DNA of 64,000 nt from Thuidium tamariscinum. Its lineage: Eukaryota; Streptophyta; Bryopsida; Hypnales; Thuidiaceae. The notes under the pieces are model-generated. The model did not search any database. It worked only from the letters and a program-made list of their open reading frames with translations, and had not been told where the DNA came from. The first letter of the stretch is position 1. Each line of letters starts with the position of its first letter. This document shows, one piece after another, positions 4,101 to 64,000 of the stretch. The stretch is taken from NCBI GenBank assembly GCA_947034885.2, contig OX344752.2:2728001-2792000 (forward strand), in the 5' to 3' direction. Both the position numbers and the translations under genes were made by a program.

Positions 4101-5933
4101 ACCACCACATTGGAGGTAAGATTCTCTTATAGCGCCGAGACGAACAACTGTCTGTCCAGACTGCCTCGGGGGAGCATGGTCATGGTTCGGATGCCCACTG
4201 AAAGCGGCCCTCGCATTCCTCCATCGGTGATTTGGTGGTAACCATCTCCGGTGACCAAGGTATAGGGTCTTGTTTGCCTCTTTCGAATACTCAGCAAAAG
4301 TACCTTCTCCACATACTGGGCAACTAGCGTAACCTTTACCCACTTGCCCAGATATCAAAGTATAAGCGGGGAAGTTGTTTATTGTCCAAATAAGCATACC
4401 CCGCAATGTAAAATACCTGGAAGGTCCGGTTGGTTTAGACATGTCCACTGTTGGGACTCCGGCCCACAGCTTCTTCAACTCATGTACTAGTGGCTACAAG
4501 TAGACGTTGATGGTGTCTTCGGATGGAGAGTTGGGTCCAGGGATAATCATCGTCAAGCATATAAAAAACCTTTTAGTCAGTAGATAAGGAGGTAAATTAT
4601 ACATGACCATCATTATTGGCCAAACAGAATGCTTCGAAGACTGCAAGCTGTGGGGGTTTACACCGTCTAGAGCTAACCCCATCCTCACATTCCTTTCGTT
4701 TCGGCTGAAGGCTGGGAAATTCTCATCAATGAATCGCCATTGTTCACTATCAACAGCGGATCTCATTTTCGTGTCATTTGAGTGATGTGTCAAGTGCCAC
4801 CTCATAAGCTTAGCTATTTCTGGGCACCGAAACATTCTACGCAACCTCTTAATCAAAGAAAAATACCGTAAGACTCTCACTGGTACTGTGTCTGATCCCT
4901 CTATATACCTAGATTTATTGCACTTTGGACAAGCATCTAACTCCGCATTCTCTTTCCAATACAGGGTCCTCCCACAGGAACAACAATGAATGCTTTCATG
5001 TGACAATTCTAGTTTCATTAGGACGCTCTTCATCTCATACGAATTTTTGGGACACTTATTCCCTGGAGGTAACACATCGTGCTTCAAAAATGTAAGAATT
5101 TCATCCAAGCCGTGATGACTTATGGAAAACAAGGTGCATAAGGACATGAGTATAATGCTGAACTGTAACCGAGTAGTGGTGGAACCATCGTACAAAGGCT
5201 CCGCTGCTTCTCGAAGTAAGTCGTCCACCACATCAGAATGGTCTTCTTCTTCTTCTTCTGATGACATATCCTCAAAAGACAAGTCGGCATCCTCTTCCTC
5301 TACGAACTGCCTGTGAATTTCATCGACACGTGCAAAGTAGTTTTCAGCCATTTCTTCGAAGTTCACTTCGTTGTTTGCTGCTGCCTCTTCAAAGTATTCG
5401 AACTCCTCAGCATCTACGTAGATATCTTCTTCTTGCATATCTTCTTCCACAGCCTTACCATCTCCGTTTGCATGTGGGACAACATTTGGATTCCTCTGGA
5501 AGAAGTCAGAGAATCAGAACCACCAATGCCGAACTAATTAGCACTGACATGAATAAGGCATGTACAAAGAAGGTCCGCTGCAATGAAGAAACTGAAATGG
5601 CCACTCTTTGATTTTAAACTACACTAAAACAAATGAGTTATTGAATTATAAAATATGCTTTCACAAAGGAATATCATTAGGAAATGAGCTCACTAGAAGT
5701 GGTTCAGATAAGCGACTGTCTCTTCCATATTTTCGGTGGTGAGTCTCCACAACTTGAACTGCCTGTGTCTTAAAACCGTGACATTTCTCGCACCCACAGG
5801 GATATCTCCGAATGCCTTGCCTTGCCGCTAGTGCCCTTTCAATGTGGTATGCTTGTCCTAGGCGATCAGGCCTCATTTTGGAATGAACCTGCACATCCAA
5901 ACTTATGAATATTGAAGGGAAGAACACATCCAT
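1163..5933 (-). pseudogene. tnp2: CACTA (En/Spm) transposase TNP2, broken
   Basis: Transposase of a plant CACTA element. Exons I can place with matching phases are 5933-5694, 5495-4020, 3587-2692 and 2393-1163, about 1280 codons. Exon 1 carries the transposase-associated zinc domain (CGCEKCHG, then HHRKYGRDSRLSEPLL). Exon 2 has an acidic leader, a C-x2-C knuckle (CCSCGRTLYW...CPKC) and the TNP2 core (MGLALDGVNPHS, FELPYWE). Exon 3 continues with LLDAMHCEKNVCENLL and a DUF4218 domain (PIHLVEELFMCGPVQTRWMY). Exon 4 has a DUF4216 domain (FPKQCEQVFYCD) and a long Arg/Gly-rich tail. Two in-frame stops break it: TAG at 4496-4494 (about residue 414, between NVYL and PLVHELKKLW) and TAA at 3395-3393 (about residue 637). 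The final TAG at 1165-1163 sits directly on a GTAAGT donor. The true 5' end is uncertain. Family assignment is firm; the element cannot make full-length transposase from this copy unless stops are bypassed. Confidence 0.9.
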
Positions 5934-16957: not shown

Positions 16958-18241
16958 CTACATAAAATGACCCGCTTTCAAAGTTTTGGATTTCTTAGAC
17001 TCTCCAAGCTCAACAGAAACATACGCCACTCGTTTCTTCTTACTTTTGTCCACTAACTTGTCTTCCTTAATCCCCCAGCTCTCTAACTCAGCCTTCCAGC
17101 TCTCTAATTCCGCTCTCACATCTGATTTCAAATCCTGCGCCAACTTCTGCTTACCCGAAGATATCTTTGCTTCCCTACTTGAGCAGGGTGTGGAAACTGC
17201 CTCTCGAAGATCACCAGTCACTTCAGCGCTACAGCTCCGCGGCGTTATCTCCTCAATACCTGAGAAGACCTCTGCTTCCATGGCAGCACCGAGTGTTGAA
17301 ACTGGAGCAGCAGCCGCTTCTACGTCGTCGTCCTCTTCTCCGAGAAGCTCAAATTGAGAACCTTCCAAGATAAAGCTTTCCTCCCGCTCATAAAGAGCAG
17401 GCTTCAATGCTCCAATGCTCTGAACCGAGGTGGACCGGTCTTCAATGAACCAACCGACATCAGGAAGCTTTTCTGCTTCTGATAGAGAGGACGGCAATGG
17501 GATAAGCTCTTGAGTTGGCGGCGGAGGAGGAGCTTTCTCGAAGAGTACCAGCTTCACACCATCCCACCTGCATTCTAAGAAGAGAGGAACATCTGTCTGA
17601 ACAGCTGGAATTTCCAACTTCTTCACGGAGGCTGATACCAAGTTGAAAGCTGAGATCACCTCATAAAGAGCTTTGATTAGTATCATACGAAAGCGGGCAA
17701 GCAAGGCCAGTACGGTGAGGGCGAACGGCATGAAGAAAGCTTGGCTCAAGAGTCCCTCAATCGCCAAGCCCGCATTTAATATAGGATCTTCCATCATCTG
17801 TAATAACCGAGAAGCTCCTAACAACCGTCGCTGGACAGTTAAAATCATCTGTTCCTTGGATTCCAAGCTTTGCCCCAGGCTGCTTAAGACAGCTTTCGGG
17901 GGGAGAGCCTTCTGCTTCGAGAAAGAGACGCAATGAGGTAGTGCCTCGACAACCTCTTTGAGTGGAAACGATTCAAGTAGAAGTAAATCTCGCCGCACTT
18001 GCAGCAAACGACGGAAGTAAACCGTTCTCCGGTGTTGGTTTTGGTTCTTGTACATGATTCTTTGAAAAATAGCATTATCTTCCCAGATTTGGGTAAAGAG
18101 ACTCCTCAATCGGTTTTGAATAGATTTCGCCTCTTCCTCCACCTTCTTGCTGTCGAAGGTTTCCTCCGCGAATTGTTTTAGGCAAGTGGGTGGACGCGGG
18201 ATAAAGGCAGGTAGCCCACCTTTCCCAGATTTCTTCCCCAT
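16958..18241 (-). CDS. Nepro-like nucleolar protein (DUF4477)
   Basis: Single-exon frame of 427 residues. The start is the ATG at 18241 (MGKKSGKGG); the frame is open two codons further but without an ATG. Residues about 40-75 match the Nepro N-terminal domain: an Ile/Leu-rich helix, then IMYKNQNQHRRTVYFRRLLQ and VRRDLLLLE, the basic signature of the family. A hydrophobic helical stretch follows near residues 170-200, then a proline-rich linker (APPPPPTQ), an acidic Ser/Ala-rich middle (GEEDDDVEAAAA) and a Lys-rich C-terminus (KSKKKR) suitable as a nuclear signal. Animal Nepro is nucleolar and has been tied to RNase MRP and pre-rRNA processing; the same role in plants is inferred. All its roughly 20 Gln codons are CAA or CAG. 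This is a conserved host gene, with no sign of damage. Confidence 0.85.
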   Translation of the reverse strand: MGKKSGKGGLPAFIPRPPTCLKQFAEETFDSKKVEEEAKSIQNRLRSLFTQIWEDNAIFQRIMYKNQNQHRRTVYFRRLLQVRRDLLLLESFPLKEVVEALPHCVSFSKQKALPPKAVLSSLGQSLESKEQMILTVQRRLLGASRLLQMMEDPILNAGLAIEGLLSQAFFMPFALTVLALLARFRMILIKALYEVISAFNLVSASVKKLEIPAVQTDVPLFLECRWDGVKLVLFEKAPPPPPTQELIPLPSSLSEAEKLPDVGWFIEDRSTSVQSIGALKPALYEREESFILEGSQFELLGEEDDDVEAAAAPVSTLGAAMEAEVFSGIEEITPRSCSAEVTGDLREAVSTPCSSREAKISSGKQKLAQDLKSDVRAELESWKAELESWGIKEDKLVDKSKKKRVAYVSVELGESKKSKTLKAGHFM

Positions 18242-19012
18242 ATTCAATCCTCCTCAGCTTCTCTTCTATTTCATTGAATATTGACGAAAGATTTAACAGT
18301 TGAACGCAGAAGCCTTTGCTTCCCAGAACCCTAATTCGCAAAAAGCTGAGCTCCAATCTTCAAAACTCCATGATACTTATAAGACTCCAACCAAAAACTT
18401 AATATCATGCTCACGAAATGAAGGAAAACAAAATCTCCTTAAGTAATAGGGTACAGGCTGCAAACCCTAAAACGTGACAGCAAAATTCCAGAGAATGAGA
18501 TTCTGCAATTCCAAACTATTCGAGATCAGACAAAAAAATAACCAGTCAACTAATTTTGCAAAAGAACATAATGATCATTCGAAGCATTGTAACCGAAGAA
18601 GGGCACTCTTACTTGACTCGTTGCAAATACTTCCTTGAACGCATCTCTCCCGATCCCTGTTCATGACAACGATGAGATAACGTCAGAAGCAAGCTCTGAT
18701 ACGCGCCATATCCAAATGTAGATACTTGGTGGCGGCGCAGCTCCGGAGGGTCCTATTCTGATAGGATTCCCCCAGTAGCGATCAAATGATCCGTGGCGAC
18801 TAAGATAGTTTCTAAGCCCAATCCAGTTCTGTAAGTTTTTCTCTAAGTTAGCTTTCATTTCCCAGATTACCGAGAGTAGCAGGGATCAGGTCGGGGTTGG
18901 GAGACACATGACGTTAGGTCAAAATTAGGGTTTCGGCGCAAGATCGCCCAATCTCAAACCAGAGCAATGCAGAATCCCTCCTATACAAACTCGTTAAGGA
19001 GAGAACCAACTC
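18242..19012. promoter_or_regulatory. Upstream region of Nepro
   Basis: The 5' flank of Nepro. An AAACCCTAA telo-box near 18465-18472 and its reverse at about 18926-18933 (TTAGGGTTT) lie here; telo-boxes are common near starts of plant ribosome-biogenesis genes, which suits a nucleolar protein. No other gene was recognised. A minus-strand frame at 18661-18858 has no known similarity. Confidence 0.4.
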
Positions 19013-48354: not shown

Positions 48355-49250
48355 CCCCTAAAGGACTAAGGCATTTTCTGGCTTGAAAACCACTCAAAAC
48401 TGCCATGTTTGCTACTTCTTCCCATAAAAATTAAAAGATTAAAAAAAAATTCTTAAAATCTAACCGTAGGATTTCTAAATTATTTGTCTGAAATCATGTA
48501 GTAAAAATTTCATGAAGTTTGACGATATGGATTGGAAGATATTAGCATTCAAAGTTAGAAAAAAAAGTTTTTTTGAATTCTGACTTGCAATTTCAGATGA
48601 CTTTGACTACCATTTGTTGAATTTTTTTGCACTATGGACCATGAAGTTAAACATTTTTATGTTGAAAATTTGAGTTGAGAATTAGTGGAAATTAAAAAAA
48701 ACAAAAACTACTTGATTTTCATTCATGAAAAAATTGTTAAATAGAAGTAAGTCCAAGATTGAACAAAACACTAAGTTGTTAATAAATTTAAGTGTAATTG
48801 AAAAACCATGATCCCAAAGGTGAGCTTGTTCTTGAAAACATCCTAAACCCTATCAAAAAAGAAAATTTGAAAATTTTGAAAAATTGCAGTCAAAAATGAA
48901 TTCTATAAGTTATTTTTTGAAGAAGGTGCTTAGATTGCCCGAAATACAAGATTGTCCGTAACTTTCTCATTATTTGTCCAAATAAAATGAACCAAAGCCA
49001 ACGACGCTAGCGTTCGAGCGTGGAGCGGTGAGCTTGTGAGCTGCGAGCGGGAAAGTTGTGAGCGGTGAGCATGAAGTAGCCTTTTTTTTAGAAATTTGGA
49101 CTAGAATTTTTTTTCAATCAGTTTTTGTTCCAAAATTCAACAAATAATTACTATTTATAGTAAATTTTGCTACCCATGACCGTGTCTCCTATAACCGTGG
49201 ATTTTCGTGAAATCTCATATTTTGGGACCATTAAGAATATCATCTATACA
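48355..49250 (+). mobile_element. TTAA element related to the one at 20660, interrupted
   Basis: TTAA at 48351-48354 is followed by CCCCTAAAGGACTAAGGC. The interior follows the 20660 element closely (ATCTAACCGTAGGAT, TAAAAATTTCATGAAGTTTG, GATTGCCCGAAATACAAG). At 48999 the match stops in an abrupt GC-rich insert of about 80 bp, after which only vague similarity returns. The right terminus was not found; the end given is approximate. Confidence 0.55.
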
Positions 49251-49533: not shown

Positions 49534-52500
49534 CTACTTTGAAATAATGATGATCCCTGCCCGAACTAAGAGTAGCTTCAACTCATTAAAGCTATAACTA
49601 GGTGCATGAATGAATTTGTCATCATGACTATCCATCTTGCAGAAATACCTATACAAATAATACAAGTGCTTACAATTCACGTATTGTGCTCGGCCTCCCA
49701 CAGCAGATACCATCATATTGACAAAGTCAGGGCATGTGCATGTAGGGAATGTGCCCACAGTAACTCGATATATATTCTTGTTAGACTCCGCTCCAGTCTG
49801 CAAGACCACTATTGCACCAAGTCCAGGAAGAGGTACAAGGGTTACTCCCAAAATTTCCCCTATAATATTTGAAGCACTTTCCCATTTGTTGCGTTGCTCT
49901 ATGGTTGGAGGATTTGCAAGTCTTTTGATTGTTCGGTTGTTCCTCACTGTAGGGTGCACATCTGCATTTGGTGGACATGGTTGGGTGAAGAAGATAGGCT
50001 CAAAAATCTTAGACATGGCAAAAAGTTCACGTGGCGACAATATAGGCTGTTCTTGAAGACGGAAGCCTGCATGTTGTAACAGTAAGGTTTCTTCACGATT
50101 CAAATTGGTCCCCATTAGAATAGGCCAAACTTTAGGCAGCTCTGGCCTATCAATTACCCACTTCCTCTTTGTACCTTTCACACATCGTTCAATGTCATCC
50201 CAACAAAACCAAAAATCCACGACAACCGGGCGCTTAGTTCCATACTCTTCTTTTCTACCATGATAAGTAGGAGCAGGGGTTCCTTTTCCACCCTTGGCAA
50301 TCCTTGAGGTACACTTGATGTTTGACGTCCGTTGTTGAGCCCAGCATCTTGCATTTGATTTGTGGCTGATCCTTGCAATGTGCCACTTGGATGTGTCACA
50401 ATCGCTTTCAAATGCTACCGTCACATAGTTGGAGGTATTGACTTCGTTTCGATTTCCAATGCCTTTCATTGAATGTTCTACAACTTGTGTAGACCTTGTT
50501 CGGACCCGAGGTTGTGAAAAGTTGACTTTGTCAGGTCTATGTGAATCTCCAGCATCACCAATAGGTACATCAAGCCTCCTCTTTGTGCTTCCAAAAATTT
50601 CTTCTCCTTCTAGATGAGGTACTCGAGTTCCCACTCCATGTGCTTCTGGCAATGTATTCAACGCCTCTGCAATTTTTTGGGGGCACCCACTACGCCTAGC
50701 TGCCCTCAACCTCAATTCTCCCTTTGATGGTCCTGACCCACATGCATTTCCTTTAAGGTATGCTCGATAGTTTGTCATTTGCATCCAAGCTCGAATACTG
50801 TCATCACAAGTGGCATCAAATAGATTGTTTCCTTTTTTGCCCGACATTTGTAGCCATTTATTATGGACCGTTTCCGATAGATTACAAAAAGGCATGTCTG
50901 TCATCTCCTCTAAAGTAAGCCCCTGAAATCCAACCATAGGCAGATATGAATAAGAATAGAGTTCACTATTATTACACCAATTATATTTGAAATTGCTCCC
51001 TATACTTCTAAGAATTTGCGTATGGCGTTAAAGTTTAGAGAAGTACAATTGAAAATAAGAAACAAATAGTGGTGGGTATATTTGGAATATCCAAAATTGT
51101 CACTTGGCCCAAAAAATTTGAAACATTGTACCATCAACTAGTTTATCAACGGCATCCAATATTTGTATTAGGGAACAATATATTTCTTCAAAATTAAAGA
51201 GGTTTAGGAATTCGTCGGATCCGACGGATTCAAAATACAATATCACTTTCTAGTGCATTAATAATACTAAATCATTAAAACTTACCAAAAATTTGTATCT
51301 CTATATATGCTTTACCACAAGGTTCATAAAAGGTATACTTATATCCATTGAATCCAATGGATAATTCATTCATTTCCCACACTGCTTCCTCTAACAAAAC
51401 TTTCAAATTTGTACTCAAAATTATTTTTTAAAATTTGAAATTATTTGTAGGGTAATTTTTAACTAGAAAAATATTTAAAATAATAAAAAATTATTTTCTC
51501 TATACAATTTAAATGGGTTTAGATTTCTAACTAAATTAGAATACAAAATATAATCTTTTAACCAAAATAAGATCTACATACCATTGTCATGAAGCCTCCC
51601 CACTGTAAATAACGAAAATGCCAAAATGCCAGCCAATGCTCCAAGTGATGTAGTGAGTCTTCTGTTGTAGCTCCAGATGATATCCACCATGACCAAATTG
51701 CAAGATAGCGCACCTCCGCTTCATCCAAAGTCTTGGATTCTTTGTATTGTTTACAAAGTGCAATGTGTTGTTGTTGTAATGCTTGCTTTATGTGCTTCTG
51801 TGTGTGCTTCTGAAGAGAGTTACTCCAGTGTAGTAAACACGTTCTCTCACGATTCTTCATAATGTCATCTGCAGAACCACTACCATATACAATACGAACT
51901 GCATTCCAATTGGCCATTGCGCTATCTGCCATAAATCCTTTAAAATTTGGCTTTGCCACTCCATATTTCTCCATTATAGCATTCAGTGACCTCCAGAACT
52001 GTACTTAAATCTCTGTATCTTCTGATTGCATGTCACACACTGCAATAGTCATTACCTTCTTGTACTGAGAGTCGTACACGTGGCATGCCATGGTGGTCCA
52101 GTCCTTCATGCGCTTCACGTGGTCGAACATCATCCACGCATTCTGTAGATCACCTTCAGGTTGCATGCGCCTTACCAAGTCCACTCCACTTCCAAGCCCT
52201 TCAGTGAGCATTTTGAAGATGTAAACCTTCTCTTTGCCTTGGCCTGGAAAGACACTGTCGTGTATGAACTCGAACTTCGATTCCTTCTTCATAGTCATAA
52301 TGTTGTCAATGACCCCTCCTTGGTTGTTTGAGCGGAAAGAAGAGATGATATTCCGTATACTAGGACTACTTAGAAACTGAAAGCGATCCATGACCTCTTC
52401 CATTTCTTCTCCCTTCAATATCTTCTTCTCTCCATCTCCGTGGTGAAAAAGGTGGTTCGTAAGGAAGTCTTTGCTAGCAGATAAGGCTATGGCGGAATTC

Positions 52501-53754
52501 GTGGCTGAAGGAGTTTTAGCAACTTGCTCTACTATGAGTTCAGTAATTTCTTTTGCAGAATCTCTATACATGCCTTTTGCTACCGGGTGAGAGTGATTTC
52601 CTAGGTGAATAGCAGCCCTAGTCATATTTGGATTATCACTGTAGCAATAGTAAATTCTAGCATCACAGGTACTAAGACATGTAGGAACTGTTTTGCAGAC
52701 TTTACAAACTAGCTTGCAATCTTTGGGTGGAACGACTCCTACTGCAAATGGAAATACTGTGGAACCACTCCACTCTATTTCATTCTTCCTAAAGGTCCTT
52801 GACAAGTACTCGCAGCTAGGGTTTTCACAAATAAGATGGCCAGCGCAAAAGGACTTACGGAACTTCAAATTGTCCGAGTTGTTGATGTTCGTTGTCACTA
52901 GCTTGCACCAACCATGTCCGTCGTACCGCTTGTCCATTCCCTCCAAGTTCTTAGCTGCAGATGAAGATGAAGAGGCCCGACACGGCGATAGTTCAAAGAT
53001 GGCATCTCCGTTGTAATCGGGTGGTAGAAACTCCACTTGGTGGTGCTTGACGGCATTCATATCTAATGCTGACAATTCATTTCTTGAACGTTGAAGACCA
53101 GAAAGTCCCTTCAAGCATTTCATTATACTTGTTACATTGCTCACAATAGGATGACAAACTTCCTATGAGAAGGTATGTTGCTTAGAAATACTAGTAGAGG
53201 TGTTCTGTACAGAATTCGTAAGTTTCATATCATTGGACTCTTTTTTGACCAAAAAAGGGTCCATCTCTAGAGTCAAGGAAGGAGATTGGCCTTCAGACTC
53301 ACTGAATAATTCTACAATAGTACCTAACAACTCCACCTTTCCTTCAACAGACAATTCATTCTGTACAAATGCTGGAAAGCATCCTATAGGAGTAGTAGGA
53401 TTAGTATTTTGAGGTCCGTTCACTGAAGGTCTATTCACCGTAGAATTATCAGATTGGCGACTTGCTATCTCAGTGGACAAAGCTAACATAGATAATGGGA
53501 GACCATAAGCCCTATAGTTTCCGAGACCTAGAGACCAATAGGCAATAGTGCCCTTCATTAGAGAGACATTTTAGAAGCGGGATTGACTGAAGTAATTCAC
53601 TAGACTCAGAATGGCACTCTTCTTCAACATAGATAGATGACTCTACAAACTTGAATCGAACATGAAGCAAGTGGCTAAATACAGTAGCATGACCTTCTAG
53701 GTCTAAAGGAAACACTAAAGGAACTTCGTGACCATCTACACGAATGCTGGCCAT
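49534..53754 (-). pseudogene. MULE-like transposase with WRKY/GCM1-type and SWIM zinc fingers, broken
   Basis: Two exons, 53754-51582 and 50922-49534, joined in phase 0 (ATG/GTATGT and GATTTCAG/GGG), about 1185 codons. The start is the ATG at 53754 (MASIRVDGHEVPL). The N-terminal half has a zinc-binding module: FCAGHLICENPSCEYL, CKVCKTVPTC, then AIHLGNHSHP, the Cys/His pattern of WRKY-GCM1-type fingers found in MULE transposases. A DDE-type core follows: MTIAVCDMQSED, GFMADSAMANWNAV and CLLHW. The C-terminus has a SWIM finger (CTCPDF...CKHLYYLY). Breaks: a one-base insertion near 53550 (frame shifts between LSNEG and IAYWSLGLGN), TAG at 53165-53163 and TAA at 52007-52005. The intron holds a TCGGATCCGA palindrome. 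It diverges from the plus-strand genes starting at 54723. Transposase class is well supported; exact MULE subfamily is not. Confidence 0.8.
51208..51231. repeat. 24-bp palindrome, CGTCGGATCCGACG core (P1)
   Basis: Lies in the transposase intron. It is a 24-bp palindrome with one mismatched pair: GAATTCGTCGGA joined to TCCGACGGATTC. It shares its core and its GAATTC-like outer bases with the palindrome at 62439. Confidence 0.85.
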
Positions 53755-54220
53755 GTTGTTTACAATCAACTATAAGATAGAAATGCAGGTACAAATGAAT
53801 TGAGGGCTTAGTAAAAAACAAAACATGTGGATTCATATAGGGTTCTCAAGGGTGCATTCATTACTTGTAAATGAAAGTGGCAACGACAATATGGATTAGA
53901 ATTTAGCATTGATAGTGTGTACAGTAGAGGGGCTCTGGAGCTAAGCAATCATTTCAAAAATAACCGTCACATTATCATTAGCTAATACGAAATATACGGT
54001 ACAGTCCCAAATTACCATTCTGACGATTTTCCAGTGTTGGGTTACTAATTAGAGTCTCAATAATTGAATAATTTTATACTTATAGAAGTTTCCAATCTTA
54101 GATATGTTGTCAGTAGATTTGTGGGGTACTATATCATTATTACATTGTCGACTTCTTTGGAACGGCTTCAATAGATTTCATAGCATACACAAATCTGTAC
54201 TTTGACTGACATTGGCTGCG
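53755..54220. promoter_or_regulatory. Divergent promoter region, transposase side
   Basis: Upstream of the transposase ATG on the minus strand. No open frame. Together with the tandem repeats that follow, it forms the roughly 970-bp interval between the divergent genes. Confidence 0.4.
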
Positions 54221-54442
54221 CGGTCTCGTCAAGTAACCTCGGGCAATTTTCGAATTTTGGAAGTGCCGGCGCTGTCTCGTCAAGTTGTCTCGGGTAGTGC
54301 ATTTTTTGATTTCTAGAAATGCCTACACTGTCTCATCAAGTTGCCTCGGGCAGTGGAATTTTCGAATTCTGGAAAAGCTGGCGCTGTCTTATCCAGTTGC
54401 CTCGGGCAGTGGAATTTTCAAATTTTGGAAGTGCCGGCGCCG
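54213..54442. repeat. Four ~55-bp tandem repeats between divergent transposon genes
   Basis: The unit GCGCTGTCTCGTCAAGTTGC, then CTCGGGCAGTGGAATTTTCG, then AATTTTGGAAGTGCCG recurs with starts of TGTCTC-like words at about 54223, 54274, 54331 and 54386 (spacing 51-57 bp). It is GC-rich and conserved in an AT-rich setting and sits in the promoter interval between the MULE-like transposase and the plus-strand genes. Confidence 0.8.
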
Positions 54443-54722
54443 AAATAGTTATGTCATATGACACGCGCGAAATCGTGAAGAGCAAAGACGGTGTTTAGGA
54501 AGAGGAGTACATAGGTGATTCTTGAAAGAGCTGGATTCATTTCATAGTTATCCTTCGAGTGGAGCTCTCATCTGTGTGTAGAGCAGAATTAGGTGTTTCT
54601 TTGATGTACTCATGATTGTAGGACATTCTATTGTACATTCTGTCCTTTTAGAGCAAAGGAAGAGTCATAGGAAACATTGTTCTTTCTTCTATTCTTCGAG
54701 GAAAGTGTTGAGGAGAGCCAGG

Positions 54723-55170
54723 ATGACTCGTGCAAAGAAGACACTGTCAAAGCGAGGTCGTGCTGAACCAAGTGGGTCACAGAAGTCTCTTAGTCTTGAG
54801 ATAGAAGGGGGCGACCAATCGATGAGTGTTGAAGGCGAAAATGTAGATCCTATGCAGGAGTACCTAATGGAGACGCTTGTCGAAGACGAAGGCATAGAGT
54901 CCCAGGAAACGTCTACTGTAAGTGCCATTACACGCATATTTTCGTTGATTTTCATTTGATGTAGTTAGAATTAGAACAACACTGAATGAATTCAGTGTAT
55001 AGCAAGTCAGTGAGATTCAACAAAGTGGTCATTGAGAATTTTGTCATTTTGTGCTATTGTAGGGGATGCAATTTTTGAAAGTACATAGAAACGAGCCAAC
55101 TTATAGAGCAACACAGGGATACTACATAGAGTGGCAGGATGAGAGTAGAAATATAACTAAGAAATTGTAA
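54723..55170 (+). CDS. Small acidic protein gene A of the transposon block
   Basis: Exon 1 54723-54917 (ATG after AGG, 65 codons) ends ACT/GTAAGTGCC. Exon 2 55063-55170 follows a GCTATTGTAG acceptor in phase 0 and ends TAA, giving 100 residues. The start is basic (MTRAKKTLSKRGR), the middle acidic (MQEYLMETLVEDEGIESQE), and exon 2 encodes GMQFLKVHRNEPTYRATQGY then YIEWQDESRN. No known domain. Exon 1 ends in phase 0, so it could also splice to the exon at 58223 and serve as the N-terminus of the next gene; an RNA read would decide. Confidence 0.5.
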
Positions 55171-55608
55171 TCCATATGATCTATAAATTCTGTTTGATGC
55201 TTTGTGTTAGGAAAGAAGTTTAGGTAAGGTAGAACCACCTATATCTGATCACTTAAGCAACTGAAGAACAGATTGTAAAGAATATGAGCCTATGAAAACT
55301 TTTTCCATATAGCAAGATAGAAAAGATGGGAATCGCAAATTTGTATACTTCTTAGTCCAAGAAGTGAAATTTCTTTGATTTTTGAAAGCCCATAAATGCT
55401 TTGAATCCATATCCCAACGTTGAGAGTCTTTTAATTTTGATCATAGTCAATACTACTTTCCTAGTCAATACTTCCCTATTACTTCATGACACTTTTGGAC
55501 ACGTGTCGTGACCTTGACAGTACAGACCTTCAAAATTCATGAAAAAAACTTTCAAAACTTTGGTTGAATTTTTCTTCTTTGGTTGAATGTACACTAAGTA
55601 TTGTCCAC

Positions 55609-55890
55609 TAAGTATTGCCGGGTATCAATACTTCTTCGGGTTTCAGTGTCAGTCCTTGGGTATTGCCGGGTATCAATCAGTCTTTAGCAACATGGGTCAG
55701 TCCTAGGGTATTGCCGGGTATTGATCAGTCCATGGCGACATGGGTCAGTCCTGGGTATTGCCGGGTATCGATCAGTCTTTGGCGAGCTGGGTCAGTCCTT
55801 GGGTATTGCCGAGTATCAGTCCTTCAATAGCACGTGTCAGTCTTGGCGATGGTCGGGTATTAATCCGGCTTTGGCTGGATTTGTCAGTCC
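55609..55890. repeat. 48-bp minisatellite
   Basis: TATTGCCGGGTAT recurs at 55613, 55661, 55709, 55756 and 55804, a 47-48 bp period, with TCAGTC(C/T)(T/A)TGG-type words between; a decayed copy follows near 55848. Because 48 is a multiple of three all frames look repetitive (16-residue repeats), but no start or splice context supports translation. Confidence 0.85.
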
Positions 55891-57187
55891 TTCGTCGGCT
55901 CCAGATGGTGGGGAAGATACTGAAATGAAAAGTCACCGAGTAAGACAGAGGACACGTAACACACCAGTTACAAATCGAATCTCCAAAGTCAATGCAAACT
56001 TGGAATTCCATGATTCATGGATCGGCGCCAAGTTGGAAACTTTTGCATTCATGGGCCGCCTCAATTCTTGCGCAGGCAAGTCTGCTCCAGGCTGCCAACA
56101 CAGATGGAGTCCAAAAATCGAGGAAGTCATGGAGAATTTCGATCCAGGCAATACTTTTCGCTCCTGGATTCGCTGGCGAGTGAGTCAGAGTTCGAGGGAC
56201 CCCGCGCGCCAAGCCTGAAATTCATGAACTCATCTTTGTAACTCACATCTTGAGCCGCGACCTTCAGGCTTCTCACAATCCTGAATTTTTTCTCGCAAAC
56301 TCATTGGAAGGTTGATGCAGATGCCGAGGATGACGCGGAGCCGAAGGAAAACTTCGGGGACTCAAGACGGATAGGGGTCTCAGCCTGAGGTACCTGCTAC
56401 TGTCTCGATTTCAATTGCTTGTTTCTCATGAGTGCCGTGAACCTCTTCGATGCTAGTCAGCCTGTCTTCAGCGTGCTGTAGTTCAGTTTTTGGGTGGATT
56501 TACGATCCCGCGGCAACAACATCTGAGTGTACGTGAGAGATTCGGGAAATGTCAACTGGAGCTTTTGGGCTTGAGAGACGACCGATAGAGCTCAAAGTCA
56601 TGCTACTTAGATTTTCAGAAGTCATGCTACTTAGATGTGAGGACATTCAAGGCAGAGCCTTCAGGGTGCACAGGACGTACTCATGGCGAGCAAGTCCAGA
56701 ATCCGCCGTGTGCACAGTGAACCTCAGCCATTCAATCCAGAACTCTAAGTCTAGTTCAGTACCGCCATGAACTCGCTGCCATGGACTCGCTTGGATTCGC
56801 AGTCGTGTTCTTCCTTGCACGCGCATCTGAGGCCGTGTTGCAGGTGCGTCAAATAGCACGAACGGAGCCTGCTTCTCGTTCTGTCTCCACGAGAGAGCTC
56901 TCGCCCGAACCAGACTGTCGTTGGACTTCCGCGAAGACCGGTACTGATTCTTGCTTGCAGATTTTCTGCTTCTCAGTGTCTCCATTCACAGTGTTAGATT
57001 TCACGCTGAATCCCTTTCGGATGTCCGTTACTTGAGATTTGAGGCTTCACTTCGAAAGCCTTCGTTTTCAAATTTGAATGCCAGGAGGCCACCGACCCTG
57101 AGCTCGTAGTCACGAGGAGAGAATCCTTGATCTGAAGCTACAGTAACATCAACTAGTTTTTGATTCAAGAAGTAGATAAAGCTGGAA
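55891..57187. other. GC-richer stretch between genes A and B, no gene assigned
   Basis: Many overlapping frames are open on both strands because of the composition, but none shows a domain or convincing exon borders. A short duplication (TCATGCTACTTAGAT twice near 56598-56637) is visible. It could be intron of a gene running from 54723 to 58933. Confidence 0.4.
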
Positions 57188-57194
57188 AAAAAGT

Positions 57195-57282
57195 GAGCCC
57201 TGTGGGTACCACGAGGCCCACGGGAAAACCAAGTCGGATCCGACTTGGTTTTCCCGCGGGCCTCGTGGTACCCACGGGGCTC
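57195..57282. repeat. 88-bp near-perfect palindrome (P3)
   Basis: The arms are 44 bp with two mismatched pairs. The centre is AAGTCGGATCCGACTT, then GGTTTTCCCG, and the ends are GAGCCC...GGGCTC. RNA from either strand would form a very stable hairpin. Confidence 0.9.
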
Positions 57283-57442
57283 TGAAATTTTTTGAATTTT
57301 CACCGAATCATGTCCTGGAGCTTCTGTGGTGAAGACTGCCTGCGCTGCTCCTGCCGTACCTCCGTGTCAATGACCAAGTTCAGTTTCGATTTTATGGAGT
57401 CATGTTTGACTTGTTCGATTCAGGTAGATTAAAAAAAAAAGT

Positions 57443-57530
57443 GAGCCCCGTGGGTACCACGAGGCTCGCGGGAAAACCAAGTCGGATCCGACTTGGTTTT
57501 CCCGCGGGCCTCGTAGTACCTACGGGGCTC
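57443..57530. repeat. 88-bp near-perfect palindrome (P4)
   Basis: Same family and length as P3, with the same AAGTCGGATCCGACTT centre and GAGCCCCG...CGGGGCTC ends; a few paired differences from P3. Confidence 0.9.
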
Positions 57531-58079
57531 TGTAATTTTTTGAATTTCATTCGAATGCTATCGTCGAAGATGCCGCGGTGAAGACTGTCGCACCCCTCCT
57601 GCCGTACCTCCGTAAGCATGGAGCAGTCCAGTTTTGATTTTATGGCGACGTGTTCTTCTTGTTCAGCACTGACTTCATCAACTGGTCTTGATTTAAATTC
57701 GTTGCGTTGAAGACTTTCAGTGTACTTACTTTCATCAGTCTTTGCTAACTTTTAGTTTGATATAATCTTCTTTGGCACTTGAGTTATCTAAGAGTGAATC
57801 TCCTGTGAACTCGTGAAGCTGCCTAGGGACCGGTTTTCTAAAGTAAAAGCTAATTTTTAATTTTGAGATTGATACGGAGAAAGATTCCTTAAATCCCTCT
57901 TGTTTCCTACTGAATCTCTGACAATGAGAATTTGGACCTCTTTGTCTCCATAGAATCTTGATTTGTTTTATATATCCCTCTGAAAACATGCTATTTGGAT
58001 GCAAGACAGTAAATTTTCTTGATCATATTTGGTCTTCTTTTGAATTTGTGGATATTTCAAAGAAAATGGGCTATTTGTG

Positions 58080-58149
58080 GGGTACTACGAGGTGTTTGGG
58101 AAAATCAAGTCGGATCCAACTTGAATTTCTCAAACACCTCGTAGTACCC
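58080..58149. repeat. 70-bp diverged palindrome (P5)
   Basis: Related to P3/P4: GGGTACTACGAGGTGTTTGG and its inverse flank a TCAAGTCGGATCCAACTTGA centre. Several mismatches in the arms, but paired changes (GGTGTTTG/CAAACACC) keep the fold. Confidence 0.8.
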
Positions 58150-58222
58150 AATTATTTTCATCTTTTTTTTAAATTTTAAATTTTTAAATTTTCTAGTACT
58201 CACATTGTGATTGTTTTTCCAG

Positions 58223-58933
58223 CCTGCTGCAAAAACTGGAAGCATTGGAAAGGACAATGATGATTTGAAGCAACAGGTTTAATCTCTTTCATTGTGAAAA
58301 TTTATTTTGAAGTAGTGTCTTTCCTGATAAATAATTTACCTGTCAATGATCCTAAAGGCATGATTTAAATGATCTAGAAATTTTTTGTGAATTGAAATTG
58401 ATTTAGAGCATTTAAATTTCGGAGTTGTTTCAAGTACTTAGAATCATGACTTTGCAAACGAATATTAAATTTTATCCTTTTGTGTCCAGGGTGGCCAGGG
58501 GCGGGGAAAACGCCAGAAGGTTTTGATTCTTGAGGAGGAGAGTCCTGTAAACCAGACTGTCCCTGATAAGGACGTTGGAGGACCATCCAAGCCCCAGATG
58601 TGGCCACAGCCAGGGGTGTCCATTTCACTTGACCAAAGTGATGCAAACCAAAATTTGGTGAGTTTTGATGACGTCATGGATGCTGCGAAGTATGCCGTTG
58701 ACGCATTTCAATCAAGTGTGCTTAGTGGGACTAGGGGCAATGGCCCGTGGTTCTCATCTTTCAGTGAGGAGGAGGAGTATCCCTCTGATTATGAGCCCTC
58801 CAACTCCAGCAGTGTAGAGTTTTTTGATTTGTACACAGGGGAGAGTGAGGTGTCAAATATGGACCTGTTTCAGTCAGATGAAATCATCATCCTCAGCTCT
58901 GATGAGGATGAGGATGTTCAAATCATAGACTAG
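58223..58933 (+). CDS. Gene B: acidic protein ending in a SUMO-interaction motif
   Basis: Exons 58223-58276 and 58490-58933 have good borders (TTTTTCCAG, CAACAG/GTTTAA, GTGTCCAG) and both start in phase 0. Its first exon is not certain; 54723-54917 would fit by phase. The protein has a basic start (GGQGRGKRQK), a Pro/Gln-rich part, a helix (FDDVMDAAKYAVDAFQSS), an acidic Ser-rich stretch, and the end DEIIILSSDEDEDVQIID. IIILSSDEDED is a textbook SUMO-interaction motif (hydrophobic core followed by Ser and acids). The TAG stop at 58931-58933 is directly followed by GTGGAG, a plausible splice donor, and the next ATG at 59160 directly follows a strong acceptor. So B and the ParB-methyltransferase gene may once have been one gene, with CAG changed to TAG at the exon end. 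Confidence 0.55.
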
Positions 58934-59159
58934 GTGGAGTTTTGTTCTCACAAACACTATATACGAGGCCAGGCTTTATCTATATATTCAATGTACTTTA
59001 TTTTTGTAGATGCAATTGACCATCCAATTGCAAGTAATATATTCCACTTGAAGTAATATATTTTTCTATTCATTGATCCATCACTTTGGTCAAGCAATTT
59101 ATATTTTTTTTGTCTACTGTAAACCTTCCATTTATTAAACTTGACCTTTGTTCTTCTAG

Positions 59160-62100
59160 ATGGACATCTCCCCCGCCAAAACCACAGAAGCAAAAACAAT
59201 ATTTGAAACGCCATCCTCTCAAAACCAGAGACAACCAGAGATCGAACAAGGAGAAGGAGATGGAGATGAAGGAGAGGAGGACATAGAGATTGTCATTCAA
59301 GACCGTGAGGAGGAGAAGGTGATGTCAGAGGAAGAACTCCGGCACATTCAAAAAGGTGATGTTGTGAAGCTCTTGGCACAACTTCGGATGAAGCCCGAGG
59401 AGGTATTTCGAATGCACATACCATTGTGCAGGCTTGTGGCAATGCCAATGGTCAGACCCGCATTGGCATCTGATATCCTGCAGCTAGAGCAAGAGTTTGC
59501 AGGTGGAGGGTACCGAGATGGTGCTGCAGTATTCTATGTGTCAGCTACAAACGAAGATGGGAACACTGAAGAGTTCACCCAACAGGAGATGGATAGTTGG
59601 GACCCCATTTGGAAGGAGAAGAATGAAGTCTTCAAACAAAAGTTTGAGTCCAAGCCAGAGCTTCAGTTCTTGAAGAACTTGAAGATCTTCATTTGCGATG
59701 GGAACCACAGACGAATTGCGTGGATGAACTACATCTCTAAGCACTCGAAGGAGCACTGCAGTGTCGATTCTATCATGTTAGACACGAAAGGTCGGAATGA
59801 ACTTGTCATGCAAGTCATGCATGACGTAAACAAGTAAGTTCCTTCTTTCTTATTGTTTTTATTTTTCAAAAAAATATTCAATTTGAATAATGTACTTTCT
59901 TGGAGGTAGTTCAGATCTTCGGCTTATGTTGCATTGAATGGTTCTCAGGTTTGTAGAAGACTCCCACGTGAAGACGAATTTGGTACACACCTTGTACCAA
60001 ATTCAGAAGTACGGAATGCTACCCATAGCAAAGTTTGCAGCTCTACTTAGGCCTGTAGAGAGGAAGAGGTGCCTTGAGCACAAGGTCACTAAGAAATGGT
60101 ATTCAATTCAACCCGAGGTCTTCACATCTTTCATCTTCCGGGTAAGCTCCTTCAACTTGTTTTTGATCAAAATATTTTTATTTTAAAAAATCATCATTGT
60201 CCATATTGACTTCACATCTATTTGGGTTTCTTGTGCAGCAAGAAATTTCACAAGCTGCAGATGCAACAGTAAGAAGGTACATGGAGGCCACACAAGAGAC
60301 TGGAAGTGTACCACTACAGGCAGCCGAGGCAATGAGGTTGGGAGCAAGGGAACGAACAAAGGCAGCTATGGTGAAGATGTTCAAATTGCTGGCGGTGGCC
60401 AACCCAGCGAACGGAGTGGACTTCCTTAAAGAGGTACAATTCAGTAATTAGCCTCCAACTTCACTTTATTTGTTTAAAAAAAAGTTCAAATCCATATTGA
60501 AAAACTAACTATTGTCTTCTTGTAGGTGGAAAAGCATTGGGACAATTACGAGGTGCCTGAAATGACTTTGGAGAAGCTCTAGCTGGTCGCCACCTGCAAG
60601 ATGACTGCAAAGCACAAGACAAAGATACTTCAATGGTGGAACTCTTCTACTCTTTCACGCGAATCAAGGAAGTTGCCACCAAAACCTGTCTCCGAACTCT
60701 TACTTCCTCAATTTTTGGTGAAGTGCACTTGGTACACTGGGGTAAGTGTTCAATATCTTTTCAAGAGTGCTTTGATATTAGGGGAATTCCAGATCCCCTC
60801 TGATGCCTTTAAAATGGCATCAGTTGGGGTCCTTCATTGAATTTGAAGGTGTACTTAGCAAAGATTCACTCTATTTTTTCCGGTAATTTTCATGTATTTT
60901 GACACTGTAATTTTTGTGAAGGTACAATTTTTTGTGAAGGTACATGAATTATAGTACCATAATCGGTTTTGTTTGCTAACGTCAAACAATAAACAATTAA
61001 GTAGTAATGGTTTATGAGTTTCTCAACTTATTAGTGAGAATGTATTTTCTTTAATATTGTAGGTACTTTTTATTCTAGATGTTTGCACAATCTAATTTTT
61101 TTATTGAATAATAAGTTATTTTCATTAAAATATTTGGTAATACAATTGAACTTTTTGACTATATCCCATTTTTCAGATAGAAGATGCTGCAGTGGAGTTC
61201 TTCGACAAAATTGTAAAGGAAGACAACTTTTCCATCGACTACAACGTAAAACCAGAACCAGAGCGGCTACCAGAGTACATTGAAGGATGGAGGCATAAGA
61301 TTTGGGAACATGGCTTCATGAATTACTTCAAGGGCTCGAAGTACTTCAAGAGGGGCCAAACTTTTTCATCTCACAAAGGCTCTAACGTTGTGGTGCGCAG
61401 AGTCCTTTATCGGTATGTCATTTTCTTTACTACTTGGAATTTTTCACCCTTGAAAGGATTGTAATCTACAACTTCTATGATATATTTTGCTCTTATTCTT
61501 TCATTTTTAAGTTGAACAATGCTCCATATAACTCATTATGATTGAATTACAGGTACTTCAAGTTAGAGCTTGAAGCGAAGGGGGCCATTGCAAAACTGGA
61601 CCTCCCTCAATTCCTTCCATGCTTCCCCGACCGCAACTCAAGTTCATGCATGTTCAGCCCACATCAATTGCGCACCTACACTACTGCTCATCTCTCTGGC
61701 ACGGGTTGGTACTTGGACTGCACACTGGAGTTCACCCATAATTCGGAGGTTCAGCTCAGGGCATCATTGGAGGGCAAGGGGGTGATAGATTTGGAGGATG
61801 TTGACGAGTTCATTGGCATGGATGATGATGCCAGGAAGAAGGCCATCGACAAGAGGGATGCACTGGACCGAAAGAAAGAAGTGAAGAATCAACTCGTCGT
61901 GGAGGCCAAGGAGAAAAAGCAGGCAGAGAAATCAGCAAAGAAGGCAGAGAAAGAAGCCGAGAAGGAGAAGGAAGAGAAGACTAAGGCCAAGGGAAAGAAG
62001 AAAGTGGAAGAGAAAGGGCAAGTCTTAGCTTCCTCCACTGTGGATCAAATACAAGGCGGAGTACCAAGGACAGTCACCATCTCACAGCTCACTGAAGATG

Positions 62101-64000
62101 TCATTTCACGTGTGACACAAGCCATGGTCCTCTCCGACGATGATGTGCCACAGACTGAGGATTTAATCCTTAATATTTGCATTGAGGACATCGCCATGGA
62201 TATGGTGGACAAAAGACAGGGTGCGTACGATGAGGTCTTGAAGTACTTGGTTCAGGTGATCTCTTCACACATCTTTGCTCAAATTTATTTTACTTATTGT
62301 CAATGATATGAATGCTAAGCACCAAAGTTGCTATAATGAAACATTGAAGAAAAATTTCTCTCTCCTCCACAATTATATTTTGTATTGAAGAATTTCTGAA
62401 TTTGAAAAAATTAGTATGACAACAAGGCAGAATTTACAATTCCGTCGGATCCGACGGAATCACCTAAACCGATATTTTGTCCTGTATTTCCCTACTTAAC
62501 ATTACCTACTTTCATATGGTTTTGTTTTCTTTAGAAATAGTTGAACATATTGACAAATGTAATTTCTTTTTTAGCTCAGACTTTTATTGAAGTGACCCTA
62601 AAATTCCTAATGTTGTACTAAATATTATGAATCTACTTTGAAAGGTAGAAAAGTATGCAATACTAATATATTGAAATTGTATTGAAATATGCTTTTGCAG
62701 ATGGCAGTGGGCAAAACTCGCATGTTTGAAGGTGTCGCAAATGCAAGGGCTGGTGTTGATGTCATCTTCATTGACTATCCAGAGAACTTGCCTGTGCCAG
62801 GCATTTCTCTTACGTCGAAGGAGGTGCCAAATTGGAATGCAGATTTAGAAGCTAATGCTTTGCAATCCGCATGCACCTTTGCAGTAGAGCATCTGCACGA
62901 TGATGGATGCATCATTGTGTTTCACTCCTTCAGCATTGCATCCAGGGAAGATCTAGCAGGAGTTTGCGAAGCATTTGACTTTAAGAAGAAGAAAGATTGG
63001 CTAGGCATGAACCGCATGCATCTCACCTCGCCAATGGACACCACAAAGACGGTAATTTCAGTACAGATGCTTCAGTTTTTGTCACCTATTTTTTTTTAAA
63101 TTCTATTTATTGATCTCTAATGTTCTTGTGTCATATATGTTGCAAACTCAGAAGTTTGGAGTCACTCTCCTTGTCAAGGACCTCAAAGCAAAAGGCGAAT
63201 CCAAATTTGCTTTCAAGTGTACTGAGATGATGAAGAAGGCTAGGGTGGATGTCGAGAATGATGACATGCTGATGAATTACATGCATGCAGATGACATCTC
63301 CATGAATGGGAAGAAGCCATGGAGAGGCCCACGTGAAAAAGATCCAAGGTTCTTCACCCTCCTCCTTGAAGCCACAAGCAATGAAGGCGATGTCATTGTG
63401 GACTGCACGGCATCCACAGGTTTGTCTTCAGTTTGAATATTTCACACTTCTATGTCATTGTAACAATTTTGTCACCTCTCTAACACATTTTTTTTACATG
63501 AATGCCCTAGGTGCTTGCATTTTGGCTTGTAGAGGAACTGGCCACAACATTCTAGCTTTTGAGGGGGACAAAGATGTTTTCAATGCCATTTTGAAGCCCA
63601 TGAAGAAGTCATCACCCTTAATGCCAGTGGCTCCAACCCCCGAGACAACAGTGAACTTGACAATGGATGTGCAAGATGCGCCTATTGTGCCTCGCAAGTT
63701 TGTTCGCAAGGAAAAATCCAGTAAGTAAGTGGAAACTTCTTTCATTCTTTATTATTTTTCTTCATATCACATTTGCAAAGACTAATATAATGTCTTCAAT
63801 TTTTGCAGAGGTTGTGGATTGATCTTGAGAGAGGTCATGGACCAAAATCAAAGGCTTGTCGTTAGTCCAGAGAAGCCTTTCGAGCTACCACCCTATGCTG
63901 AGCAGATGGCAAGTGCCTTTGCAAATTTTGGTTGTTCCAAATCAAAGCGACGCAAAGACATTTACGCCCTCAATGTCTTACAGTTTATAGATGCTTCTGC
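59160..64000 (+). pseudogene. Gene C: ParB/sulfiredoxin-like domain plus permuted DNA-methyltransferase-like domain
   Basis: Ten exons with consistent phases: 59160-59833, 59949-60141, 60239-60433, 60526-60741, 61177-61412, 61553-62255, 62701-63051, 63152-63419, 63511-63724, and 63809 past the window end; over 1080 codons. Residues about 85-230 look like a ParB/Srx-type domain, with IFICDGNHRRIAWMNYI as the DGxHR signature at 178-194. A Lys/Glu-rich coiled stretch spans about 610-660. Residues about 740-980 resemble a beta-class (permuted) amino-methyltransferase: VDVIFIDYPENLP at the place of the DPPY motif comes before HLHDDGCIIVFHS and, later, GDVIVDCTASTGACILACRG then NILAFEGD at the SAM-binding motif. 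DPPY is replaced by DYPE, so activity is doubtful. An in-frame TAG at 60580-60582 (TLEKL, stop, LVATCKM) would end translation at residue 372. It follows gene B and lies 5.4 kb from the divergent transposase. Domain calls are by eye. Confidence 0.7.
62439..62460. repeat. 22-bp perfect palindrome, CCGTCGGATCCGACGG core (P2)
   Basis: Lies in the intron between exons 6 and 7 of gene C. ATTCCGTCGGA joined to its exact inverse. Same core as P1 in the transposase intron. Confidence 0.9.

Follow-up and report, generated by a model that had tools for sequence, protein, structure and literature searches.

The stretch of DNA analysed here, 64,000 nucleotides of the moss Thuidium tamariscinum (contig OX344752.2, positions 2,728,001 to 2,792,000, below called the window, on the contig that we number C4), carries at its right-hand side a member of a large (15.9 kb) moss family of DNA transposons that resemble Mutator-like elements (MULEs) and hold three genes that are inherited together, namely gene B, gene C, and a transposase. 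A single transposon at positions 48999-64896 (15,898 bp) contains both the transposase and gene C, its right end falling 896 bp beyond the window. The transposase is encoded on the minus strand, and genes B and C are encoded on the plus strand. Between the exons of these genes lie palindromic sites that look specific to the family, and they are central to the role that we propose for gene C.

Extent, ends and mobility of the element

Genome-wide counts refer to a genome of 363 Mb in 19 contigs. This genome contains the plant gene LEAFY, whose DNA-binding part agrees with the Physcomitrium LFY structure 4bhk at 100 of 106 residues (238 bits, the next structure scoring 173), a single-gene indication of a moss. 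Six copies of the element were compared, those in the window and on contigs C8, C11, and C2 plus two more. The four named copies (4/6) possess an identical left end, CAACGACGCTAGC, and an identical right end, GCTAGCAACCCTG/A, and reading of their sequences reveals a different 10-bp duplication around each; in the other two, one or both ends lie beyond the stretch compared or were not located. For the window copy, the left target-site duplication, GAACCAAAGC, is found at 48989-48998, its right counterpart (64897-64906) being outside the window. In 22 of 25 insertions, the 10-bp target duplication is exact. Twenty further end pairs, picked by hand among the ends listed, included 17 in which the 10-bp duplication is exact; of the other three, which stayed in the count, one has 9 bp, one agrees at 9/10 positions and one at 2/10. 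None of 380 mismatched control pairs reached 9/10. For MULEs, PMC6446971 gives target-site duplications of 8-11 bp, the range that the original prediction had also named, and the 10-bp duplications of the moss element fall inside it. Shared outer termini thus enclose both genes and, together with the 10-bp duplications, establish that the transposase and gene C are mobilised together. The original prediction had proposed a common transposon for the two, albeit one of 49534-64000, an extent that proved too short.

Three subfamilies were compared, each represented by one sequence, and further groups exist; the gene order is common to the three (one copy each). The left terminal region (48999-49070, plus strand) consists of the CAACGACGCTAGC end and GAGC iterons placed every 7-8 bp, is mirrored at the right end (64896), and constitutes a candidate transposase-binding array. 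These iterons occupy equal left-end positions in subfamilies 1, 2, and 3 (for subfamily 3 judged by eye), and in subfamilies 1 and 2 the right ends show their mirror image. The short mirrored ends with GCTAGC and GAGC iterons form terminal inverted repeats, unlike the long terminal inverted repeats of classical Mutator.

Genome-wide, the left end has 260 matches with at most two mismatches and the right end 223, the reversed control giving 0 in either case, and a 501-bp piece of gene C was scored at 40 places of 121 candidates (93-100% identity, the window counted). A full, diverged subfamily 2 element of ~15.67 kb, bordered by a 10-bp duplication, is nested on contig C1 within a gene C of subfamily 1, in exon 7. 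Since subfamily 2 copies are 99-100% identical across 646 bp, activity of the element is recent.

Three further observations concern the distribution of the element. Contig C11 (17.5 Mb, ~5% of the genome) holds 20 of the 68 perfect left ends among the matches listed, and a gene-poor or sex-linked chromosome is one candidate explanation for this excess. On contig C6, three equal-scoring gene C copies with matching ends are situated on one strand at ~25.21, 25.44, and 25.64 Mb, that is at a spacing of ~0.2 Mb, and perhaps reflect a segmental duplication that carries the element. Eight left ends among the matches listed (C1:15918181, C2:302681, C2:449620, and others) show the variant CGTGCGAGCG and perhaps belong to a further subfamily or to non-autonomous derivatives.

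Structure and conservation of the three genes

The transposase is composed of two exons, exon 1 (51582-53754), which is degraded in the window copy, and exon 2 (49534-50922), which contains a SWIM-like CxC...CxH pattern; both are open in the subfamily 2 copy. A transposase with WRKY/GCM1-type and SWIM fingers had been anticipated here. The two-exon transposase on the minus strand bears this out, whereas SWIM, its only Pfam match, stays below threshold (expect value, E, 0.069 in one search and 0.67 in another) and a WRKY/GCM1-type finger turned up in no search made. No Pfam match to a MULE transposase domain was obtained up to E 10, and therefore the element is called 'MULE-like'. The N-terminal part of the transposase also contains a stretch (VDLSSDSEG in the sequence labelled F2, VELSSESEG in F1) that, like one at the C-terminus of gene B, we take to be SUMO-interaction-like.

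Gene B starts with an exon encoding a small protein (54723-54917, plus strand), perhaps has a short middle exon at 58223, and ends with an exon (58490-58933, plus strand) whose last residues form the SUMO-interaction-like motif IIILSSDEDED. First and last exons are conserved between subfamilies 1 and 2; the first exon was also located in subfamily 3, where the last one falls mostly into a short gap between the sequences compared. A small acidic protein and a SUMO-motif protein had previously been listed as products of separate genes; the SUMO-like motif is indeed there, but the two are probably the two ends of the single gene B.

Gene C comprises 10 exons (59160-64070, plus strand, extending beyond the window end) and its product has 1104-1112 amino acids (aa). 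Exon 1 (59160-59833) includes the ParB/Srx-like motif FICDGNHRRIAW, a motif only, to which no profile match corresponds. Exons 2-6 span 59949-62255 (59949-60141, 60239-60433, 60526-60741 with an in-frame stop in the window copy, 61177-61412, and 61553-62255). Exons 7-9 (62701-63051, 63152-63419, and 63511-63724) encode a methyltransferase-like region that reads DYPEN at the position of motif IV and DCTASTGA at that of motif I, and exon 10 runs from 63809 to the window end at 64000 and on to 64070. The earlier view of gene C as a spliced gene agrees with these 10 predicted exons, a structure repeated in the subfamilies; eight of the 10 exons are equal in length between subfamilies 3 and 1, and in subfamily 2 the length of exon 7 differs too, owing to a one-base break of that copy.

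The resemblance of the end of gene C to N4/N6 DNA methyltransferases is supported by sequence comparison. In a PHROG search with one of three gene C members, the top five matches were all methyltransferase families (E 2.2e-5 to 0.0068), two of which were matched by all three members and three by two of the three. A tblastn search of phages with the methyltransferase-like region returned 65 records at E ≤1, and the 15 listed among these (E 0.02-0.6) comprise 11 annotated as DNA methyltransferase, one hypothetical, and three without annotation. An alignment to the adenine methyltransferase DpnA displays the beta-class order, in which the motif IV region (query 763-839, 0.9 bits) precedes the motif I region (935-982, 7.8 bits), at scores that are not significant. 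No protein relatives were detected in the protein collection searched, and none in viral contigs or prokaryote genomes, each of which was searched with two short peptide patterns. A canonical N6_N4_Mtase gene elsewhere in the moss genome was not encountered at E 0.001 in a search that misses gene C as well. As to the capture of gene C by a transposon, which the original prediction had suggested, gene C is mobile with the transposase, but no sign of a recent capture from bacteria emerged from shallow searches of two short peptide patterns each.

Across the three subfamily pairs, gene C (1,095-1,098 codons) yields ratios of nonsynonymous to synonymous divergence (dN/dS) of 0.109, 0.132, and 0.112, at protein identities of 67.7, 65.9, and 80.9% and with dS values of 2.08, 1.81, and 1.07, which are saturated or nearly so. 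Single pairs gave 0.121 for transposase exon 1 (copy C4b against subfamily 2), 0.084 for transposase exon 2 (window copy against subfamily 2), and 0.12 for the last exon of gene B (143 codons). All three genes (gene B in its last exon) have been under purifying selection, which was maintained across the subfamily split. As its 10 exons are kept and dN/dS is 0.11-0.13 among subfamilies, gene C is an old, maintained gene of the element. In exons 8-10 of gene C (window 63152-64070) the between-subfamily dS is 0.43-1.11 and hence below that of exons 1-7, where all except one of 21 values are >1.1 or saturated; recombination between subfamilies or a constraint at the DNA level could account for this difference.

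Individual copies are damaged in one gene or another. In the degraded window copy, exon 4 of gene C contains an in-frame stop and the transposase has stops or frame breaks, and the C8 copy has a stop within gene C. In the C11 and C2 copies gene C is open and the transposase broken, in the subfamily 2 copy the transposase is open and gene C has a stop and a one-base break, and both genes are broken in the subfamily 3 copy. Overall, a full-length open frame of gene C is present in two of six copies, two are truncated, and two contain an internal stop.

Palindromic sites within the element

The 12-base sequence GTCGGATCCGAC occurs, with at most one mismatch, six times in the window element and six times in the subfamily 2 element, where first-order Markov shuffles predict 0.15 and 0.13 sites, respectively, even with two mismatches permitted; it was not found in positions 1-48990 of the window. 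Genome-wide there are 655 sites, as compared with one for the reversed control and ~5 expected from base composition. One site is situated in the transposase intron (51214-51225); subfamily 2 has it in its transposase intron as well, and subfamily 3 has a version with one mismatch at a like place. Another one, perfect across 22 bp, is situated in intron 6 of gene C (62444-62455) and has no counterpart in the gene C part of the copies from subfamilies 2 and 3.

Between the exons of gene B, the core TCGGATCCGA (or TCGGATCCAA) is accompanied by GTAC-containing boxes centred 31 bp on either side, and the window contains three such composite dyad sites. Site 1 (57206-57271) is 66 bp long and reads GTACC-N23-TCGGATCCGA-N23-GGTAC, site 2 (57454-57519) has AGTAC as right outer box, and site 3 (58082-58147) combines the core TCGGATCCAA with the outer boxes GTACT and AGTAC. 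Both GTAC boxes are present in eight of 12 aligned units (3/3, 4/5, and 1/4 across the three subfamilies) and the left box in 11 of them; the alignment shows high information in the core and in the outer boxes and little in between. The arms of the palindromes are frequently complementary yet differ in sequence between units. Units in one element derive partly from tandem duplication and are therefore not independent, and the stronger evidence comes from comparing the subfamilies.

A genome-wide search for GTACC-N(18-32)-TCGGATCCGA-N(18-32)-GGTAC identified 190 sites, and its reversed control 0. Among the 50 of these sites listed, 49 measure 66 bp and one 62 bp, where 56 to 84 bp were permitted; 47 follow a listed left end at a downstream distance of at most 20 kb, and for the remaining three a gene C match is no more than 14 kb away. 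Similarly, 46 of the 50 core sites listed out of 655 (all of them on contig C1) are at most 20.5 kb away from a listed left end, and the remaining four are at most 20.5 kb away from a right end, on the element side. Measured from the left end, core positions among the matches listed cluster around 2-3 kb, in the transposase intron, around 7.5-10.5 kb, in the interval that separates the exons of gene B, and around 12-16.5 kb. As far as the matches listed go, the palindromes centred on GTCGGATCCGAC look specific to this element family. GGATCC and GATC, both contained in the palindrome core, are targets of known N4C and N6A enzymes.

Two other features of the window lie outside the element. Open frames with DUF4216, DUF4218, and Transposase_21 domains on the minus strand (1163-5513) are part of a CACTA/En-Spm-type transposon, and a NEPRO_N-domain open frame (16958-18253, minus strand) probably is a host gene.

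A proposed role in self-recognition and its precedents

Because the repeated sites at the ends and those in the introns differ, the two sets suggest two DNA-binding activities. The terminal set fits the transposase, which would act on the GAGC iterons at the element ends, and the internal set fits a recognition protein encoded by the element. We predict that the internal palindromes are binding sites of such a self-recognition protein, probably the product of gene C. ParB proteins act at palindromic sites, and a ParB-like N-terminus of gene C is a possible lead that rests on the DGNHRR motif. Within FICDGNHRRIAW, the stretch CDGNHRR, which we take to resemble the ParB/Srx motif DGxHR, has CDGN and RR invariant in six of six aligned exon 1 copies and H in five of six; this alignment excluded five of nine copies, all of them interrupted by a stop in the frame considered, and one of those excluded reads CNENHRR.

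The best explanation of the whole, to which we assign a probability of about 0.5, is that gene C is the binder and that self-recognition and anti-silencing are its role, a reading favoured because the intron motifs of VANC21 in Arabidopsis and a self-binding proposal for Ectocarpus, both treated below, are precedents. The gene C protein would bind the internal palindromes as a dimer or oligomer, and by this binding the element would recognise its own copies in trans. Gene C might then mark or shield the DNA of the element, by base methylation if its active site works and otherwise by occupancy, and such marking or shielding would keep the element from being silenced. VANDAL elements belong to the MULE class. 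A self-modifying or anti-silencing role, as had been surmised from the window, is a reasonable guess that gains support from the intronic, element-specific palindrome array, since introns are where the target motifs of VANC sit in VANDAL elements. A more far-reaching version, which we regard as doubtful, is a complete self-recognition system of bacterial type in a plant DNA transposon; here, a ParB-like/methyltransferase-like protein would nucleate on parS-like 66-bp sites of every copy, each with three boxes about three helical turns apart and centred on GGATCC/GATC, and would write a base modification that plants otherwise lack. The AMT1 pathway, which writes N6-methyladenine, is reported in PMC12695648 to have been lost in plants.

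Several results weigh against this proposal. The original prediction had described gene C as a ParB/Srx-methyltransferase fusion. The methyltransferase-like end was recovered (PHROG E 2.2e-5), but PF01555, although hit by all three members, remained sub-threshold (best E 0.013, 15.9 bits against a cut-off of 26.7), and the ParB/Srx half obtained no profile match in PHROGs, PDB sequences, NCBIfam, or Pfam with six copies of exon 1. Among solved structures the best match to gene C was DpnA at E 0.51, directly followed by a chance-like match to monellin at 0.8. Structure prediction did not provide usable models either, mean predicted local distance difference test values being 35.5 for exon 1 (AlphaFold, from six sequences) and 28.6 for the methyltransferase-like region. 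In subfamily 3, the 12-base palindrome is weaker: the left 10 kb contain two GTCGGATCCGAC sites with one mismatch and three with two, three of these sites keeping an intact 10-base core, and none was found in its 6.5-kb gene C stretch. Any of the three element proteins or a host protein may fit as the binder of the palindromes. Finally, no copy with every gene open was seen among the copies examined, so that the element may or may not be autonomous.

The catalytic motifs of gene C require separate consideration. Canonical beta-class motif IV is (D/N/S)PP(Y/F/W), from which gene C departs, reading DCPEN in subfamilies 2 and 3 and in the C11 and C2 copies of subfamily 1, DYPEN in the degraded window copy, and DYLEN in the degraded C8 copy. 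Because motif IV is non-canonical and varies in degraded copies, catalysis by gene C may be lost, and for the same departure we use the term 'methyltransferase-like' and do not count gene C as an active member of PF01555. Methylation by gene C itself thus appears somewhat improbable, as judged from the altered motif IV. The idea that gene C encodes a methyltransferase-like protein without catalytic activity, which binds and shields only, in the manner of VANC, comes close to an even chance; DCPEN stands at motif IV in the one aligned sequence of each subfamily, gene C being under purifying selection, and motif I is altered as well (DCTASTGA), whereas motif IV retains its aspartate, motif I still contains glycine, and some methyltransferases tolerate changes in their motifs.

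Other accounts of the palindromes do less well. They might be sites of the transposase, or an enhancer of transposition, with gene C being an accessory gene of some other role. The transposase presumably binds DNA, and in subfamilies 1 and 2 its own intron contains one palindrome. However, a different, phased GAGC array, which is the usual kind of transposase site, marks the ends at constant left-end positions, and the 47 composite sites with a left end among the matches listed are located at 8.0-10.3 kb (43 sites) or 13.6-14.7 kb (four sites), none of them at the ends, so that we consider this account unlikely. Still less probable, in our estimate, are RNA hairpins serving as small-RNA precursors, or chance foldbacks, in place of protein sites. 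The subfamily 1 arms are long, near-perfect palindromes, and arms vary complementarily between units, but several subfamily 2 units have partly lost the pairing of their arms while keeping the core and the outer GTAC boxes at constant spacing, and the 66-bp length holds in 49 of the 50 composite sites listed despite the latitude of the search. A Pack-MULE-like capture of the ordinary kind, in which a piece of a host or bacterial gene would have been taken up without serving the element, is hardly credible, for although MULEs often acquire additional reading frames (PMC6446971), the full 10-exon gene C is kept in three subfamilies at 66-81% protein identity and a dN/dS of ~0.11-0.13, and no host or prokaryote relative was found, in a host search that misses gene C's own copies and a prokaryote search with two short patterns.

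Among known systems, the closest parallel is Sola1-1_Ec32 of the brown alga Ectocarpus, a transposon encoding an 1104-aa protein with a ParB-like part and an N4C/N6A methyltransferase; for this protein, binding and modification of the transposon that encodes it have been proposed (PMC12477816). Both elements are very large DNA transposons and encode N4/N6-type methyltransferase proteins of similar length (1104 against 1104-1112 aa). In contrast to Sola1-1_Ec32, the moss element resides in a moss, has MULE-like ends and 10-bp duplications, encodes a gene C without profile support for ParB and with an altered motif IV, and adds gene B and the palindrome array, the two elements being compared by description; passages of PMC12477816 on the Ectocarpus protein mention no comparable palindromes.

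Arabidopsis VANDAL elements, with their VANA, VANB, and VANC genes (PMC5735166; PMC10398659), are likewise described as multi-gene elements with short element-specific motifs in introns and other noncoding DNA. The VANDAL motifs that VANC21 binds form tandem repeats, which are located upstream of VANA21 and within introns of both VANB21 and VANC21 (PMC5735166). The VANC21 motif, as described there, is 9 bp long, of a single orientation, and non-palindromic, and gene C, unlike VANC, has a methyltransferase-like region. Phage proteins in which a ParB-CTPase fold is fused to a PF01555 methyltransferase (PMC12704722) share the claimed domain pair; however, gene C is eukaryotic, contains introns, encodes ~1,110 aa, and has a ParB part that profiles do not recognise. 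Retrotransposons with acquired cytosine methyltransferases (PMC5890265) also are mobile elements encoding DNA methyltransferase-like proteins, but these are cytosine-C5 enzymes in retrotransposons, whereas gene C is N4/N6-like and belongs to a DNA transposon.

Transposon-borne genes of the ParB-methyltransferase-like type are thus already known from brown algae and, by citation in PMC12477816 (of Iyer 2011 and the Bostrychia genome paper), from green and red algae too. In the open-access literature searched, no report of a ParB-methyltransferase in a moss or in a MULE-like element was found, and a poorly understood class of transposon accessory genes, for which we found reports only from algae, now extends to a land plant. 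New relative to the algal reports are the element-specific palindromes; they supply a precise candidate target site, 66 bp long and, among the matches listed, confined to one element family, which makes transposon self-recognition and evasion of host silencing directly testable in mosses.

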